Assembly (NCBI GenBank): GCA_902591025.1
Contig: CACIZB010000001.1
Span: 124,001 to 188,000, forward strand
Length of the DNA stretch: 64,000 nt
From: an uncultured Pelagibacteraceae bacterium
GTDB taxonomy: Bacteria; Pseudomonadota; Alphaproteobacteria; Pelagibacterales; Pelagibacteraceae
Direction of reading: 5' to 3'
Part shown: piece by piece, positions 18,211-36,799 of the stretch
Numbering within the stretch: position 1 is the first letter of the stretch
Layout: every line of letters starts with the position of its first letter
Notes under the pieces: generated by a model
Database searches by the model: none
What the model saw: only the letters and a program-made list of their open reading frames with translations
What the model was told of the DNA's origin: nothing
Translations under genes and position numbers: made by a program

Positions 18211-18375
18211 CTAAAAATATAATAAAACTCCAATAATTCCTAGAATTATCAATATACCAATCAAAGCAACATAATTTATTTTAATTTTAAATTTTTCGTA
18301 AATTTTTTCATTTATCTTTTCCCAAAATAAAACAATTAAAAAAATAATGATTGTTGGTATTATAAATTTAATCAT
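18211..18375 (-). CDS. 54-aa two-TM microprotein
   Basis: MIKFIIPTIIIFLIVLFWEKINEKIYEKFKIKINYVALIGILIILGIIGVLLYF; ATG overlaps the stop of the upstream regulator (TAATG). Confidence 0.6.
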   Translation of the reverse strand: MIKFIIPTIIIFLIVLFWEKINEKIYEKFKIKINYVALIGILIILGIIGVLLYF

Positions 18376-19805
18376 TAATTCTTATCTCCTACGTAAACAG
18401 ACACACCCCTCAAATTAATATCGACATCAAATTTTTTATGTAATGGTGGAAAAGCTCTTTGAGAACAATCTAATCTGTCACATGTTCTACATGAAACTCC
18501 TATAGGTATTTCTGTAGCTTTATCATTTAAGTTAAGGTTTTCAGAATATACAAATTCTTTTGCATACTTTGCTTCACATCCAAGACCAATCGACAAAATA
18601 CTTTTGGACTTACCAAATCTTCCGATTCCTTTTTCAACTGTTCTGGCTATACAAACATACTTTTCTCCATTAGACATTTTACTTACTGCAGCCTGTATAA
18701 CACCCGGTCTGGTTAATGCTGAATATACGTTCCACCTTGGGCATGCACCACCATATCTTGGAATTTCAATACCTGATAATGAAAATCTTTTTGAAATATT
18801 ACCCGCCATATCAACTCTTAGAAAATGAAACGGTATACCTGGAAGTTTAGGATCTTGTAAACAGGTCACTCTGTGGGCGACTTGTTCAAAAGAAGTTGCA
18901 AAAGTATTTTGTAATAGTTCTAAATCATACTTTAATTTTTTACATTCAGTATGAAAAGGTTTATAAGGCATAAGTATAGCCGCGCCGCAATAATTTAATA
19001 ATGCAATTTTAGTTAATTTTTTTGACTCCTCTGAAGGAAAAGTAAATTTTGAAAGATAATTTTCTATTTCATCAATCGCTCCTTCTTGGGCAATTTGAGC
19101 TGCTGCATGAAGTTTTTTTGTTTCAAGAGAGCTGTAATCACTTAAAAATAATTCTCGTTTATTTTTATTAAAAATTTTTGAAAAAGGTTTGTTATCCTCT
19201 GGAATAACATCTTTTACGATTATACCATACTCTGTTTTTAAATAATCACATAAAGCTACGTATCTAGTTCTATTATTTTTTTGAACTTTTTCAAAAACCT
19301 TGTTTGCAAAATCCTCTAATTTTGGAAAATAATTTTTATTTTCTTGTAGAAAATCTGATATTACTTCTCCCGGAAAAGAATTTTTTCGATTATCAACAAT
19401 TTTGCCAGAAATTTTTTCAATCTTATTAATAAGTTCATGATCTTTCTTTTTAAGAATATCACCTAATCTAACTATAGCTTTGCCAATCTTTGGATTTGTA
19501 CTAACTAGGTCTTTTACCTCTGGTCCCAAAATATCTAAATCCTCAAATAATTTGTCATCTAAAATTTCTGATAAAGTATTTTCTAAATTAATATCTATTT
19601 TTGAAGTTAGTTGAGACAGCTCAATATTTAATTTTTCGCATATCTTTAGTAATAAATCTCCATCAATTTTTCTTTTTCCACCCTCAATTAAGTTCAAATA
19701 ACTAGGTGATATATCAAGATCCTCTGCTAGCTTATTTGCCTGTAGGCCAAGCTGGCGTCTAAAAGCCTTAATTTTTGGACCAATTTTTAAGTTTATTTGA
19801 CTCAT
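18375..19805 (-). CDS. XRE-family transcriptional regulator of the ScfR/RamB type
   Basis: 476 aa: N-terminal HTH (IKAFRRQLGLQANKLAEDLDISPSYLNLIEGGKRKI), ImmA/IrrE-like middle, C-terminal CRTCDRLDCSQRAFPP; divergent from aceA. Confidence 0.9.
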   Translation of the reverse strand: MSQINLKIGPKIKAFRRQLGLQANKLAEDLDISPSYLNLIEGGKRKIDGDLLLKICEKLNIELSQLTSKIDINLENTLSEILDDKLFEDLDILGPEVKDLVSTNPKIGKAIVRLGDILKKKDHELINKIEKISGKIVDNRKNSFPGEVISDFLQENKNYFPKLEDFANKVFEKVQKNNRTRYVALCDYLKTEYGIIVKDVIPEDNKPFSKIFNKNKRELFLSDYSSLETKKLHAAAQIAQEGAIDEIENYLSKFTFPSEESKKLTKIALLNYCGAAILMPYKPFHTECKKLKYDLELLQNTFATSFEQVAHRVTCLQDPKLPGIPFHFLRVDMAGNISKRFSLSGIEIPRYGGACPRWNVYSALTRPGVIQAAVSKMSNGEKYVCIARTVEKGIGRFGKSKSILSIGLGCEAKYAKEFVYSENLNLNDKATEIPIGVSCRTCDRLDCSQRAFPPLHKKFDVDINLRGVSVYVGDKN

Positions 19806-19813
19806 ATTTACTA

Positions 19814-19905
19814 TTTGTAAATTTTGTAAATTTATATTTACAATATTTTTCCAGTATTTACAAGCTTTTTGTTATTTTTTATAGATTTTGTAAATTTTGT
19901 AAATT
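19814..19905. promoter_or_regulatory. Cluster of TTGTAAA operator-like repeats
   Basis: Identical 19-mers TTTGTAAATTTTGTAAATT at 19814-19832 and 19887-19905, plus inverted TTTACAA at 19837-19843 and 19857-19863. Confidence 0.8.
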
Positions 19906-19916
19906 ATAAGATTTAC

Positions 19917-20078
19917 ATGGAAAACAAACTAAAAAATAGTGAAAATGATAATCAAATCATAAACCATGAAGATCTTGCTAAACATAATAACAGAGGGATC
20001 TACATGAGAGATGATCATTGTGATTGGGGATCAAGTGGGATGCAGGACTTAGTTGAGAAAACTAACGACTCAAACTAA
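19917..20078 (+). CDS. 53-aa hypothetical protein upstream of aceA
   Basis: MENKLKNSENDNQIINHEDLAKHNNRGIYMRDDHCDWGSSGMQDLVEKTNDSN; start chosen at ATG 19917, downstream of the operator cluster. Confidence 0.6.
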   Translation: MENKLKNSENDNQIINHEDLAKHNNRGIYMRDDHCDWGSSGMQDLVEKTNDSN

Positions 20079-29803: not shown

Positions 29804-30118
29804 TTATACAACAAATATTAAAAACCAGTAAGAGGCTAATCCTGAAAATATTGTCGCAATTATACTTCTAGAGAAAATACCGATGACCATTGCAATTATT
29901 GCAGCTAATATTTTTGGATTATTATCTATCTCGAACAAACCTTTGTCATTAATAAAAATTGCTGGAAAAATTATTGCAGGAAATATTGCGGAGGGCACAA
30001 ATGATAATATCTTTCTAATTCTATCATTAAACATTTCTTTTTTAATAAGAGCAATCATGGAAAATCTTGTTAAATAAGTAATCAACCCACAATATATAAT
30101 TAATGCCCAGTTGCTCAT
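29804..30118 (-). CDS. azlD: AzlD family protein
   Basis: 104 aa; GLITYLTRFSMIALI, overlaps azlC-like gene. Confidence 0.85.
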   Translation of the reverse strand: MSNWALIIYCGLITYLTRFSMIALIKKEMFNDRIRKILSFVPSAIFPAIIFPAIFINDKGLFEIDNNPKILAAIIAMVIGIFSRSIIATIFSGLASYWFLIFVV

Positions 30119-30807
30119 GCTTTTTTATCTTTTGTTGTTAATATCATTGCAGCAAATAATCCAGCCACAGCTGCAACAATGACATATGCTTTAAAAGGAA
30201 TATAATTATAACCAAATGTGGCCACTAAACCTGAAACTAATATTACAATTACATTTATAAATTTTCTGAAATCATTAACTAATAAAGCTAAGAATGTTAA
30301 AGGAACCGCAAAACTTAGTCCAAGTTTTTCTGGAATTGCTGCTCCAAGGATAATACCTAAAAATGTTGTTGATTGCCAAATTACCCAACAAGTAGCTCCA
30401 CCACCCAATAAATGAAAATATCTATTATTATCCTTATTCTTTTTTAAATATTCATTTGATGTTGCAAAAGCCTGATCAATTAAAAAGTATGAAATAATAA
30501 TTTTCCAAGTTAATTTTAAATCTGAAAGATGTTCAGATACAACCGCTCCATAAAGTAAATGACGTGAATTGACAGCTCCCACAGAACTAATTATCACTAA
30601 AGAAGAAGCTCCACCAGAAAATAATTGCAATAAAACTATTTGAGAAGCACCACCAAAAATTATAAGTGACATTGCTATCGTTTGGATTGGTGTAAATCCG
30701 ATATCAATAGCCAACACGCCAAATATTAGACCGAATGGGACCACTGGAATCATAAGGGGACTAACATCAATGATTCCTTTTAAAAATACTTTAAAGTTAC
30801 TTTTCAT
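30115..30807 (-). CDS. azlC: AzlC family ABC/branched-chain amino-acid exporter subunit
   Basis: 230 aa; VPFGLIFGVLAIDIGFT, FGGASQIV, VNSRHLLYGA. Confidence 0.9.
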   Translation of the reverse strand: MKSNFKVFLKGIIDVSPLMIPVVPFGLIFGVLAIDIGFTPIQTIAMSLIIFGGASQIVLLQLFSGGASSLVIISSVGAVNSRHLLYGAVVSEHLSDLKLTWKIIISYFLIDQAFATSNEYLKKNKDNNRYFHLLGGGATCWVIWQSTTFLGIILGAAIPEKLGLSFAVPLTFLALLVNDFRKFINVIVILVSGLVATFGYNYIPFKAYVIVAAVAGLFAAMILTTKDKKA

Positions 30808-30824
30808 TTTTTAAAAGGTTTTTA

Positions 30825-31886
30825 TTAGAAGCAAACTATATGATCAATATGTATTGGTCTTTTGATACCAAATTTTTCATCTATTTCATGTTGATGAATA
30901 TGGTGAGAATGCACAAAAACTGGGATAAGAGTGTTGCTAGAGGCTCTAAGTGTATAAATGAAATTAGTACCTCTAAATTTCCTATCCACCACATGTAATT
31001 TTAAGTTACTTTTATCATCGTGTTGTAAATCCTCTGGCTGGATTAGGAGTTTTACATTAGATCCTATAGGAAATGGCTTAACAAAATTGCCAGTGATTGT
31101 TCCAAGATCCTTACTTTCTAAACTTTTAGGGCTTGTTACTTCTGCTGGAATGAGAATTCCTCTATTTAAAAAGTTAACTACCTCAACCGAATTTGGTAAA
31201 TGATAAACATTATAAGGATCATCAAATTGTTTAAGTTCTTGATTTAAAATTATTCCACATTTTGATCCTAAATAAAATGCCTCATATGAATCATGAGTGA
31301 CTATAATTGTTGTTATCTTTAAATTTGTGAGTATTTTTTTTAGTTTTTCTTGTATCTCTTCTTTAAAACTTTGATCTACATTTGATAATGGCTCATCTAA
31401 TAGTAACAAATCAGGCTTAGTGATAAGAGATCTTGCAAGCGAGGCTCTTTGTGCTTCGCCAGCACTTATCTCATGTGGATACTTATTTAGTATTTGGGAG
31501 ATATCTAATAAACCTATTAATTCTTCAATATTTATTTGTTTTTTTTTATTACCTTTATTTCTTTCTGAACCTAATAATATATTTTTCTTAACAGTATAAT
31601 GTGGAAATAAGCTATTTTCCTGAAAGGCAAGAGATACATTCCTATTCTCTGGTTCAATATTTATTTTTTCTGAAGACAAAGTTTTTCCATCAAGTTTAAT
31701 TGAACCATTATCTATTTTTTCCAATCCTGCAATAGTTCTTAAAATTGTTGTTTTACCAATACCTGAAGGTCCCAACAAACATATTATTTCCCCTTCTTTT
31801 TCTATAGAAAAAGAAACATTCTTTACTTTGACTTTATTTCCAACTTTAAAATCAACATTTTTAATTTCAAAAAAATTTTTACTCAT
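30825..31886 (-). CDS. fbpC: Fe3+-type ABC transporter ATP-binding protein
   Basis: 353 aa; GPSGIGKTTILRTIAGL, ISAGEAQRASLARSL, LLLLDEPLSNVD; in operon with permease and Fe-binding protein. Confidence 0.87.
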   Translation of the reverse strand: MSKNFFEIKNVDFKVGNKVKVKNVSFSIEKEGEIICLLGPSGIGKTTILRTIAGLEKIDNGSIKLDGKTLSSEKINIEPENRNVSLAFQENSLFPHYTVKKNILLGSERNKGNKKKQINIEELIGLLDISQILNKYPHEISAGEAQRASLARSLITKPDLLLLDEPLSNVDQSFKEEIQEKLKKILTNLKITTIIVTHDSYEAFYLGSKCGIILNQELKQFDDPYNVYHLPNSVEVVNFLNRGILIPAEVTSPKSLESKDLGTITGNFVKPFPIGSNVKLLIQPEDLQHDDKSNLKLHVVDRKFRGTNFIYTLRASSNTLIPVFVHSHHIHQHEIDEKFGIKRPIHIDHIVCF

Positions 31887-33498
31887 TATTTTCTCTTAAA
31901 ATATATTTTGATGTTACTATAATAAATAAACTAGCGATTAAAATTAAAAATAAAGAAGGAACTGCTGCTGCTTCTAGTAAATCTTCAGAAGCTGAAATAT
32001 ATGCAGTTGTAGCGAAAGTTTCAAAATTAAAAGGCCTTAAGATAAGTGTTATTGGTAACTCCCGTATAATCTCTAAAGAGATTAGGATAATAATAAACAA
32101 AAGTGAATTTCTTAAAAAAGGAATATGAATATTGGTAAAAGTTTTTCTTTTAGAATAACCAAGTAAATATGCACTTTCATCGACAGAAATATTCATCTTT
32201 TCATATCCCGACTTGATCCCGTTGAAAGCCAAAGAGTAAAATCTTATAAAATAAACCAAAACCAATCCAAAGATAGATCCTATAAATAATTTTTTTATTG
32301 ACGAAAAGCCTAATGACTTAATTATGCTATCATCAAACCATGCTATAAAAGTAATAAAAGCAATAGCTAAAATCACTCCTGGTATAGCATATCCCGAAAT
32401 AGACAATGTGGATAAAAAATTGAGAAACTTATTATTTGAGACTCTGTTGCCATAATTAGAAATTAAAGAAAATATTATTAACACCAAACTTGATAACGTA
32501 ACTAGATATAAAGTATTCAAAACTAAATTTGTTATTTGTAAATCAAATAAGTTTTCAGGGAATTTAACTGTCCAGTACAACATTTGACATAGTGGAAATA
32601 AAAAACTTACGAAAAAGATAAAAAAACAAAAAACAAAAGCTAAATAGGCATCAAATCCAAAAAGTTTTATTTTTTCTTTTTGTTTAAATCCACCTTTTGA
32701 ATTAATATGATATTTAGCCCTTTTTCTTGATAAATTTTCTAAAATAAATAAAGAAAATATAAATAATAATAAAAAAAAAGATATCCGATTAGCGAAAGCT
32801 AAATCATCAAAATAAATCCAAGAGTTATAAATACCTGTAGTCAGAGTATTTATTGAAAAAAAGTCGACAGCACCGAATTCTGCTAAAGTTTCCATTGCAA
32901 CCAAAGATAAACCCGCAACTATAGCTGGTCTAGCTGCAGGCAAAATTACCTTATAAAAGGATTTAAACCTTGAAAAGCCGAGATTTTTACCAAGATCTAT
33001 TAGATTTTGTGATTGATATAAAAATGAAGCTCTGGCTAGTATATATACGTATGCATATAAAGAAAAAGATATGGATAATATTACTCCAAACATTCCATCA
33101 AATTTAGGAATATTTTTGTTATAATTTGCATCTCCTAATAAACTTTTAAGAATGGTAAAAGCAGTTCCATAATTTTCAAAAAAAGCAGTTAAGGAATATG
33201 CATAGATATAGGGTGGAACTGCAAAAGATAATATTAACGACCATTTAAAAAACTCACTTCCAGGAAATTTATAGAAAGATACTAAGTAAGCTGCACCTGT
33301 ACCTATAACAAAGGTAAGTAATAAAACTGATAATAAAAGTATAAGTGAATTTGAAATATACTCAAATAGAAAAGTATTTTTTAATATTTCATAGTAGTTA
33401 GAAGTACTCTCAAAAAAACTTGCAAACACAGTTATGATTGGAATTAATACTATAAAAGAAACTAAAAAAGATGAAAAAAACCAGCTATTAAATTTCAT
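31879..33498 (-). CDS. fbpB: Fe3+-type ABC transporter fused permease
   Basis: 539 aa with duplicated BPD permease half; EFGAVDFFSINTLTTGIY. Confidence 0.9.
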   Translation of the reverse strand: MKFNSWFFSSFLVSFIVLIPIITVFASFFESTSNYYEILKNTFLFEYISNSLILLLSVLLLTFVIGTGAAYLVSFYKFPGSEFFKWSLILSFAVPPYIYAYSLTAFFENYGTAFTILKSLLGDANYNKNIPKFDGMFGVILSISFSLYAYVYILARASFLYQSQNLIDLGKNLGFSRFKSFYKVILPAARPAIVAGLSLVAMETLAEFGAVDFFSINTLTTGIYNSWIYFDDLAFANRISFFLLLFIFSLFILENLSRKRAKYHINSKGGFKQKEKIKLFGFDAYLAFVFCFFIFFVSFLFPLCQMLYWTVKFPENLFDLQITNLVLNTLYLVTLSSLVLIIFSLISNYGNRVSNNKFLNFLSTLSISGYAIPGVILAIAFITFIAWFDDSIIKSLGFSSIKKLFIGSIFGLVLVYFIRFYSLAFNGIKSGYEKMNISVDESAYLLGYSKRKTFTNIHIPFLRNSLLFIIILISLEIIRELPITLILRPFNFETFATTAYISASEDLLEAAAVPSLFLILIASLFIIVTSKYILRENNE

Positions 33499-33520
33499 AT
33501 TATACTCCGCCTTATAAAAA

Positions 33521-33570
33521 TGAAAAAAATAAAGTGCCCATAATCAATACCGATCTATTATGGACACTAT
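33521..33570 (-). terminator. Intra-operon terminator/attenuator
   Basis: Minus strand AGTGTCCATAAT - 12 nt loop - ATTATGGGCACT then TTTATTTTTTTC; between the 61-aa ORF and fbpB. Confidence 0.78.
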
Positions 33571-33578
33571 TAAAAAAT

Positions 33579-33764
33579 TCAAAAATCAAATACTTTTAGG
33601 ATATGCGGAACCTCCTCAATTTTAATCTCTGATATTTTTCTATTATTTATTCTTTTGTTGATTTTTTTACACTCCTTTAAACATGGGGAACATGCAACGG
33701 AAGATTTATTTAAATCAACTTCAGAAATAAATTTTTCTTTTTCTTTCACCATAATTATTTCCAA
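33579..33764 (-). CDS. Small cysteine-containing protein in the iron operon
   Basis: 61 aa ORF (ACSPCLKECKK); overlaps the fbpA-like stop region. Confidence 0.55.
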   Translation of the reverse strand: MEIIMVKEKEKFISEVDLNKSSVACSPCLKECKKINKRINNRKISEIKIEEVPHILKVFDF

Positions 33765-34783
33765 CCAGCAGCTGTCATTACTTCTACTGCAGCAGCTTGA
33801 TTTTTTCCGTAAGAAGCTAGCTTAGTTTTCATATCTTGTTTAAAATCTAAACCTAAGTTGTTTACTACTAATGGACTTGGTGAAACACCATCAATCATAG
33901 GAAACTCAAAAGTATTATTTGTAAAATGCTCCTGAGACTGCGGAGTTAGTAAAAACTCAACAAGTTTGATAGCATTAGCTTTATTAGGCGCACCTTTTAC
34001 TAAAGCTGCACAACTGACATTCATGTGCGTTCCTCTATCATTTTGATTAGGGAAAAAAGCTTTAACTTTCTTTGCGGCCTCTTGTTGTTCTGCACCTTTT
34101 TTACCAGACAACATAAGAGCTAAGTAATAAGTATTAGCTACAGCAATATCTGCTTCACCAGCAGCTACTGCCATTATTTGAGCCCTGTCATTACCAGTTG
34201 GTGTTCTTGCCATGTTAGAAACAACGCCTTCGGCCCACGCTGCTGTAGCAACTTTTCCATTATTTTTAATCAATGAAGCCACAAGAGATTTATTATAAAT
34301 GTTGCTAGACTTTCTTATAACTAATCTACCTTTCCATTTAGGATCAGCTAAACCTTCATAAGTCATTCCGGATAATTCAGCACCAGTAACTCTCTCTGGA
34401 GAATAATAAATTATTCTTGCTCTTTTTGCGATACCTACCCACTTGCTTGTTCTAAAACTTTTCGGAACAGCTGCCTTAATAGCTGCAGATGTTAAACCAC
34501 CCTGAAGAGTACCTTTTGCATCCATAGCACCACATCTTCCAGCATCTGCTGTGATGTAAAGATCAGCAGATGAGTCTGCACCCTCGCTGATTATTCTTTT
34601 CTCTAAAGCACCTGATTTTCCATTTATTAAGTTAACTTTAATACCAGTCATGTTAGTAAATTTGGAATAAAGCTCACCATCTGCTTTGTAATGTCTTGCG
34701 TTAAAAACATTAACTTCATTTGCAACAGAATATGCTGAAAAAAAGATAGAAGTTATTAACGCAAAAATTGATATTTTTTTCAT
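33755..34783 (-). CDS. fbpA: Fe3+ ABC transporter substrate-binding protein
   Basis: 342 aa, signal peptide, EVNVFNARHYKADGELYSKFTNMTGIKV...ADLYITADAGR. Confidence 0.92.
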   Translation of the reverse strand: MKKISIFALITSIFFSAYSVANEVNVFNARHYKADGELYSKFTNMTGIKVNLINGKSGALEKRIISEGADSSADLYITADAGRCGAMDAKGTLQGGLTSAAIKAAVPKSFRTSKWVGIAKRARIIYYSPERVTGAELSGMTYEGLADPKWKGRLVIRKSSNIYNKSLVASLIKNNGKVATAAWAEGVVSNMARTPTGNDRAQIMAVAAGEADIAVANTYYLALMLSGKKGAEQQEAAKKVKAFFPNQNDRGTHMNVSCAALVKGAPNKANAIKLVEFLLTPQSQEHFTNNTFEFPMIDGVSPSPLVVNNLGLDFKQDMKTKLASYGKNQAAAVEVMTAAGWK

Positions 34784-35798: not shown

Positions 35799-36799
35799 TA
35801 TTTATTTAAATCAACCAAAACCCTTCCGGAAATTTCCCCTTTTAATATTTTTGGATAAATTTCAACTAATTCCTCTAGACTAACTATCTGAATAGATTTT
35901 TCTAATAAATTAAAATCAATTAATTTTGCAGCTTCTCCCCATATAAATTCTCTTCTTTTAATACTACAATTAGCAGAGTCCATACCCCATAGTTTAATAC
36001 CTCTTAACATAAAGGGAATAACACTGGTATTTAGTTCATTAGTATTTGCGTTTCCGCATACTGCAATAATTCCATTTGGATTTGTTTGAACTATTGCATT
36101 GGCTAAAATTTTTCCACCTACTGTATCTACCACACCGTCCCATAAACCTTTATCAATAAGTCGTGGATCTTTATCGAATTCTGCCCTATTTACAACAGTT
36201 TTAGCACCTAAAGATTTTAAGTAATCCACTTTAGAATCTTTTCCTGTAACCGCAGTCACATTGTAACCCATTTTATTCAATGCTATTACTGCAATACTAC
36301 CAACTCCCCCTGTTGCTCCAGTTACTAAAACGTTATTTACTTTCTCACCCAACAAAATTTCTTCCCTTGCCTTTATCGCAAAAGCACTCATCAAAGAAGT
36401 AAAACCTGCTGTTCCAAGGATCATAGCTTGCTTACTTGTAAGATTTTTTGGTTTTTTTATCAAAAATTCAGCATTTACTTTAGCTAACTGGGAATATCCA
36501 CCATAAAAAATTTCACCGACTCTAAATCCTGTTAATATTACTTCATCATCCTTTTTAAATTTTGAATTCTCACTTTCTATAACCGTTCCAGAAAAATCTA
36601 TTCCTGGAATATGTGGAAATTCCTTTACTAGTCTTCCACCATTCTTCAAAATCATTCCATCTTTAAAATTTAGATCTGAATAATCGACTTTAACTGTTAC
36701 GTCACCGTGTTTAAGAAAACTCTTATCTATTGATTTAACTTCTCTACTAAACTCCTCACCTTTTTGATTTAAAATTAATGCTTTAAATTGTTCAGACAC
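35798..36799 (-). CDS. acuI: YhdH/AcuI-type NADPH:acrylyl-CoA reductase-like oxidoreductase
   Basis: 333 aa; DYSDLNFKDGMILKNGG, FPHIPGIDFSGTV, VTGATGGVGSIAV. Confidence 0.8.
   Translation of the reverse strand: MSEQFKALILNQKGEEFSREVKSIDKSFLKHGDVTVKVDYSDLNFKDGMILKNGGRLVKEFPHIPGIDFSGTVIESENSKFKKDDEVILTGFRVGEIFYGGYSQLAKVNAEFLIKKPKNLTSKQAMILGTAGFTSLMSAFAIKAREEILLGEKVNNVLVTGATGGVGSIAVIALNKMGYNVTAVTGKDSKVDYLKSLGAKTVVNRAEFDKDPRLIDKGLWDGVVDTVGGKILANAIVQTNPNGIIAVCGNANTNELNTSVIPFMLRGIKLWGMDSANCSIKRREFIWGEAAKLIDFNLLEKSIQIVSLEELVEIYPKILKGEISGRVLVDLNK

Follow-up and report, generated by a model that had tools for sequence, protein, structure and literature searches.

A strictly conserved six-site array between an ScfR/RamB-type regulator gene and aceA as a likely operator in SAR11 bacteria

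The divergent spacer that separates the gene of an ScfR/RamB-type regulator from the isocitrate lyase gene aceA in SAR11 bacteria carries six TTGTAAA sites, and their offsets, orientation and spacing are constant in 129 distinct spacers. Judging by the sequence comparisons reported here, this spacer is likely to be the operator through which the adjacent ScfR protein controls both genes, and repression is the somewhat favoured main sign of that control. SAR11 are the most abundant bacteria of the ocean and have kept few transcription factors. We found no explanation in the literature for the induction of their glyoxylate shunt, including its induction under iron limitation. The locus is a concrete candidate, with one regulator, essentially one target, a strictly kept predicted operator and a conserved predicted iron-sulfur site, and it provides a lead on how SAR11 metabolism switches as iron or carbon changes. 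The locus was studied in a stretch of 64,000 nucleotides from a Pelagibacteraceae genome (the window), and we computed the family of the regulator, its metal and CoA-phosphate residues, the invariance and spacing of the sites and their near-exclusive occurrence at the locus.

The first-pass annotation of the window had reported two identical 19-mers placed 73 bp apart, about seven helical turns, and six heptamers with 9-bp spacing inside each 19-mer. Both were found exactly so: TTTGTAAATTTTGTAAATT lies at 19814-19832 and at 19887-19905, the 73 bp between the copies correspond to 6.95 turns at 10.5 bp, and the 111 bp contain four forward TTGTAAA and two TTTACAA (Table 1). The spacer begins at the regulator, as annotated, but it ends at a 53-aa ORF and not at aceA. 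A pattern search revealed no other exact match to TTTGTAAATTTTGTAAATT in the window or in its source genome. From the window background 0.07 heptamers are expected in 111 bp, so that six have a Poisson P of ~2e-10, and the TTGTAAA count stayed at three or below when the spacer was dinucleotide-shuffled 20,000 times. Over the whole window TTGTAAA is not enriched (40 found vs 42 expected), and the heptamer count alone is therefore weak proof. As one heptamer or another reaches at least six copies in ~10% of the shuffles of this AT-rich spacer, a single sequence is only suggestive and conservation across genomes is decisive. No RNA element was found in the spacer or the leader by Rfam matches up to an E-value of 1.

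Table 1. Coordinates of the features at the regulator-aceA locus in the window
Feature	Position	Strand	Remarks
476-aa ScfR/RamB-type regulator	18375..19805	-	XRE HTH, M78-like domain, ScfR C-terminal domain
Predicted [4Fe4S] ligands of the regulator	Cys355, Cys439, Cys442, Cys447		alignment with MtPrpR
Divergent intergenic region, likely operator	19806..19916	.	from regulator start codon to 53-aa ORF
S1, TTGTAAA, regulator-side pair	19815..19821	+	GTAAA core in 129/129; exact heptamer in 105, one mismatch in 24
S2, TTGTAAA, 9 bp past S1	19824..19830	+	exact heptamer in 127/129
S3 (TTTACAA on +)	19837..19843	-	TTTAC unchanged in 129/129
S4 (TTTACAA on +)	19857..19863	-	20 bp past S3 in 126/126 parsed spacers
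Putative -10 in aceA direction, TATAGA	19880..19885	+	17 bp past TTTACA (19857-19862); conserved geometry only
S5, TTGTAAA	19888..19894	+	GTAAA core in 126/126
S6, TTGTAAA, 9 bp past S5	19897..19903	+	GTAAA core in 126/126; exact heptamer in 92
Gene of 53-aa uncharacterised protein, first in predicted aceA operon	19917..20078	+	motif Y-x-RDDHCDWGSSGM
aceA, isocitrate lyase, 424 aa	20143..21417	+	

The relatives that we searched comprised 150 whole genomes, 80 named contigs and extracted stretches, all Pelagibacteraceae or Pelagibacterales where named. The 129 unique Pelagibacteraceae spacers were aligned (a few rows are gapped, the start of the small ORF having been placed too early), and in nearly all unique relatives with a single-HTH regulator the spacer measures ~111 bp. 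The GTAAA/TTTAC core is unchanged at five of the sites, the two exceptions both falling in S2, and in the parsed spacers S1 and S5 are 73 or 74 bp apart. Mean column entropy is 0.078 bits in the heptamers, vs 0.703 outside them and 1.375 at four-fold degenerate sites of the aceA genes that go with these spacers. Loss of the heptamers in related genomes had been named as the observation that would speak against an operator; they are kept in every genome of the genus with a readable spacer. Fixed sites with near-zero entropy indicate strong purifying selection on the heptamers, and judged by their conservation the TTGTAAA repeats are functional.

This bears on the possibility that AT-rich promoter DNA alone gave rise to the heptamers, as repeats of the -35-like TTTACA that no regulator binds. 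SAR11 DNA is indeed AT-rich, TTTACA does resemble a -35 element and heptamers often recur in shuffles of the spacer. However, the core columns hardly vary while equally AT-rich neighbouring columns do, spacing and orientation are fixed, and the same 9-bp register is found in GC-richer alphaproteobacteria. The entropy contrast and the other alphaproteobacterial ScfR loci largely refute such an origin, to which we give next to no credence.

The assignment of the neighbouring gene to the ScfR/RamB type was borne out by PF09856 (197.6 bits against a cut-off of 24, E-value 1.4e-58) and HTH_3 (42.9 bits), and the closest solved relative in the PDB is PrpR of Mycobacterium tuberculosis (MtPrpR; E-value ~1e-63). 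With the NCBIfam RamB model (NF038139) the protein scores 359.9 bits, under the equivalog cut-off of 700, and since this is below the actinobacterial RamB cut-off we name it ScfR/RamB-type and not RamB in the strict sense. It carries C-X2-C-X4-C and a GAF-domain cysteine, which by alignment form a predicted [4Fe4S] site: the four cysteines align with Cys363, 447, 450 and 455 of MtPrpR and are unchanged in ~148 sequences. Two CoA-phosphate contacts of MtPrpR, Arg338 and Lys347, have unchanged equivalents; of the other residues compared for acyl-CoA binding, Lys410 is represented by K or R, and Lys217 is not alignable. At the position of the thiol-pocket residue Phe155 there is a glycine, so the sensed acyl group may differ from that of MtPrpR.

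The motif and its architecture had been taken to be specific to this lineage; for the motif this was ruled out by its match to MtPrpR and by other alphaproteobacterial ScfR loci. In DNase footprints MtPrpR protects TTTGCAAA-N-TTTGCgAA, which spans 17 bp with its octamers in 9-bp register (PMC3420887, PMC6765138); TTTGTAAA-T-TTTGTAAA is laid out in the same way. The two regulators have in common the ScfR fold and the CxxCxxxxC and Cys363-equivalent Fe-S ligands, and both lie divergent to a target, as prpD-prpR in M. tuberculosis, where MtPrpR also binds the icl1 promoter (PMC3420887, PMC6765138). The SAR11 octamers differ from those of MtPrpR in being non-palindromic and in having GTAAA instead of GCAAA; there are six sites instead of one pair, the target is aceA, and Gly replaces Phe155.

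RamB of Paracoccus denitrificans (Pden_1365) is likewise an alphaproteobacterial ScfR protein encoded divergently to glyoxylate-shunt genes and acting from paired boxes, but its two boxes are 18 bp apart and 82 bp upstream of malate synthase, the gene order is malate synthase then icl, and it senses CoA esters of the ethylmalonyl-CoA pathway (PMC10370305). Its binding oligonucleotide holds the boxes TGACAAACCTTACA and TGACAATACTGACT, which on our reading contain a 9-bp TKAC repeat. Two boxes 18 bp apart are not the layout of the SAR11 genus. RamB of Corynebacterium glutamicum, also an ScfR protein and a repressor of aceA and aceB, differs in its 13-bp motif (AA/GAACTTTGCAAA) and its many targets (PMC4448153). 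A connected control in the same organisms is that of glycine and glyoxylate metabolism by the SAR11 glycine riboswitch, to which two reports refer (PMC2864753, PMC13198564); it is RNA-based, however, and acts on other genes.

Of 26 other alphaproteobacterial ScfR loci, with regulators 34-43% identical, 11 have TTTAC/GTAAA pairs at 9 bp, against a shuffle mean of 0.03 and a shuffle maximum of 2, and further sites often follow ~32 and ~41 bp on. These comparisons suggest that the alphaproteobacterial ScfR operator consists of asymmetric half-sites in direct repeat at 9 bp. Two loci of other alphaproteobacteria (L213 and L217) have runs of three TTTAC in steps of ~9 bp adjoining the ScfR gene, suggesting that multi-site operators are not unique to SAR11. 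The locus, and in most cases the pairs, persist in sister SAR11 genera, with the regulator-side pair reversed and, where the two pairs are readable, ~93 bp away from the one on the aceA side; in one such genus (g12, genome G150) two 9-bp pairs lie 41 bp apart, start to start. Given the 9-bp pair elsewhere and its reversal in the sister genera, what is genus-specific is the flipped regulator-side pair and the rigid 73/74-bp six-site layout. The type of motif itself is already known. It is very unlikely that another XRE-type or an unrelated regulator binds the array in place of the adjacent ScfR, as the layout matches ScfR operators and the ScfR gene and the array co-occur. ScfR-family regulators are, moreover, commonly autoregulatory and adjoin their targets. 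An operator made of near-identical boxes in pairs beside the regulator gene, a trait of ScfR/IsaR regulators, is seen here as well.

In the aceA direction, the distance from TTTACA to the putative -10 is 17 bp in 116 of the 126 spacers and 18 bp in the other 10, TAGA is conserved (TATAGA or TGTAGA), and S4 overlaps the putative -35 TTTACA. A generic sigma-70 scan did not report this promoter and was dropped as promoter evidence, its calls not exceeding those in shuffles; the promoter is thus placed by conserved geometry alone. From the arrangement as a whole we infer binding of the regulator to the sites, repression, the promoter positions, bridging by tetramers and an iron or acyl-CoA signal. 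The locus would be an autoregulated ScfR/RamB-type glyoxylate-shunt switch with the spacer as its operator/promoter region, in which the XRE HTH domains would read asymmetric TTGTAAA half-sites set as 9-bp direct repeats. The S1-S2 pair would serve beside the regulator gene and the S5-S6 pair over the predicted aceA transcript start, which would lie inside S5 with S5 covering +1, while the single sites S3 and S4 stand between them. One ScfR tetramer, or two, placed across the array would occlude the two promoters, so that aceA and its regulator would be repressed jointly until the C-terminal domain loses or changes its acyl-CoA/[4Fe4S] state. With sites over the -35 and the start, repression is favoured, and an array shared by both genes would put the regulator under the same control. 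RamB of Paracoccus, a tetramer, is proposed to repress when bound, and it also activates, from paired boxes. The phasing, constant within the genus to 73 or 74 bp, is not kept in the sister genera, and its loss there together with that of the regulator-side orientation argues against one obligatory loop geometry.

ScfR proteins can be activators or repressors, and either sign is compatible with the conserved geometry. The regulator could thus be mainly an activator, working from S1-S4 as the ancestral site of upstream activation, with a pair on the aceA side that only tunes expression or keeps activation from running away. MtPrpR activates its targets, Paracoccus RamB on acetate activates the glyoxylate operon from its boxes 82 bp upstream, and sister genera and other alphaproteobacteria retain sites near the regulator. 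Yet S5 and S6, which this genus keeps strictly, are placed downstream of the predicted -10, as is usual for repression, and both aceA and the regulator rise weakly when iron is limiting, a condition expected to weaken an activator that depends on an Fe-S cluster. We regard predominant activation as possible but less likely than repression.

If the regulator acts as a repressor, its predicted cluster raises the possibility of iron sensing, with [4Fe4S] loss under iron limitation lifting repression and turning the glyoxylate shunt on. The invariance of the four predicted ligands in ~148 sequences would fit this, and iron sensing was proposed in the work on MtPrpR. In published data on iron-limited Ca. 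P. ubique, aceA rose 1.58-fold (p 0.091) and the neighbouring regulator SAR11_1242 1.60-fold (p 0.054), and expression of SAR11 isocitrate lyase is reported to be higher in iron-poor Southern Ocean water, in a paper that cites Beier (2015) for this. These expression data fit the repressor model weakly. The fold changes are small and the p-values borderline, the sfu iron-uptake operon is adjacent in P. ubique so that read-through could explain the response, the [4Fe4S] cluster of MtPrpR is unusually stable, and acyl-CoA pools may shift under iron stress too. Iron sensing is for these reasons a reasonable hypothesis, but one less likely than not. The fuller proposal, in which the Fe-S ScfR protein is a dedicated single-target iron-responsive repressor whose cluster loss induces the shunt and the 53-aa protein, is more doubtful still; if true, iron would directly control central carbon flow in the most abundant bacteria of the ocean.

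The enzyme encoded downstream of the spacer was correctly recognised as isocitrate lyase. Of the 150 genomes, 63 carry aceA, and 62 of these have the regulator as well; in the remaining one aceA stands at the start of a contig. Wherever a SAR11 locus offered sufficient sequence, aceA adjoins the divergent regulator, an arrangement shared with the alphaproteobacterial RamB of class 2, which is encoded divergently beside glyoxylate-shunt genes. Regulator sequence without aceA was seen in two genomes of the genus, in one of which the regulator is cut by the contig end. The other, which has no full-length aceA, holds an isolated 28-residue regulator C-terminus, 93% identical (L230; G015 contig 3, ~36334-36417), and may possibly have lost the locus recently. 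The pair TTGTAAANNTTGTAAA occurs mainly at the aceA-regulator locus, with at most one stray copy in same-genus genomes that lack the regulator. In the genome of the window no further site was convincing: two matches with two mismatches did not exceed a reversed-pattern control, and a multi-gene regulon there was rejected.

The 53-aa protein gene is present in one copy per genome that has the locus. Y-x-RDDHCDWGSSG is unchanged in 129 loci and degenerates to REDDQDWG-x-SG in sister genera, and synonymous third-position change around the invariant RDDHCDWGSSGM indicates that the ORF is truly coding. The protein has no Pfam match, a phage origin was rejected as no phage match was found, and outside its family there was one weak match among 337 genomes of the class. 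A literature search for SAR11_1241 by that name gave no match. In sister genera another small ORF precedes aceA (L191, ~2710-2900; L192, ~2318-2555; MRREKNNIESNCVSFDDACFDETN... and MTHREKHNIESNCVSYNDDCYNETN...), with no confident Pfam match.

At 30115-34783 on the reverse strand, ~9 kb from aceA, the window encodes an AzlC protein and an ABC transporter (ATPase, permease and solute-binding protein). These genes resemble the sfu iron(III) operon that is adjacent to aceA in Ca. P. ubique; their Pfam classes were tested, and iron specificity is assumed from gene order and the literature.

Some regulators contain two in-frame tandem HTH domains (L034, L127, L136, L137, L141, L142, L143 and L029), in frames of ~565-590 aa; long frames occur also in L032, L189 and L190. 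The additional HTH copy is 59-68% identical to the canonical one and is found in at least two SAR11 subclades. Both domains have an intact YLNLIE recognition region, and the operator is the same as in the single-HTH relatives. Two linked HTH domains suit head-to-tail sites at 9 bp.
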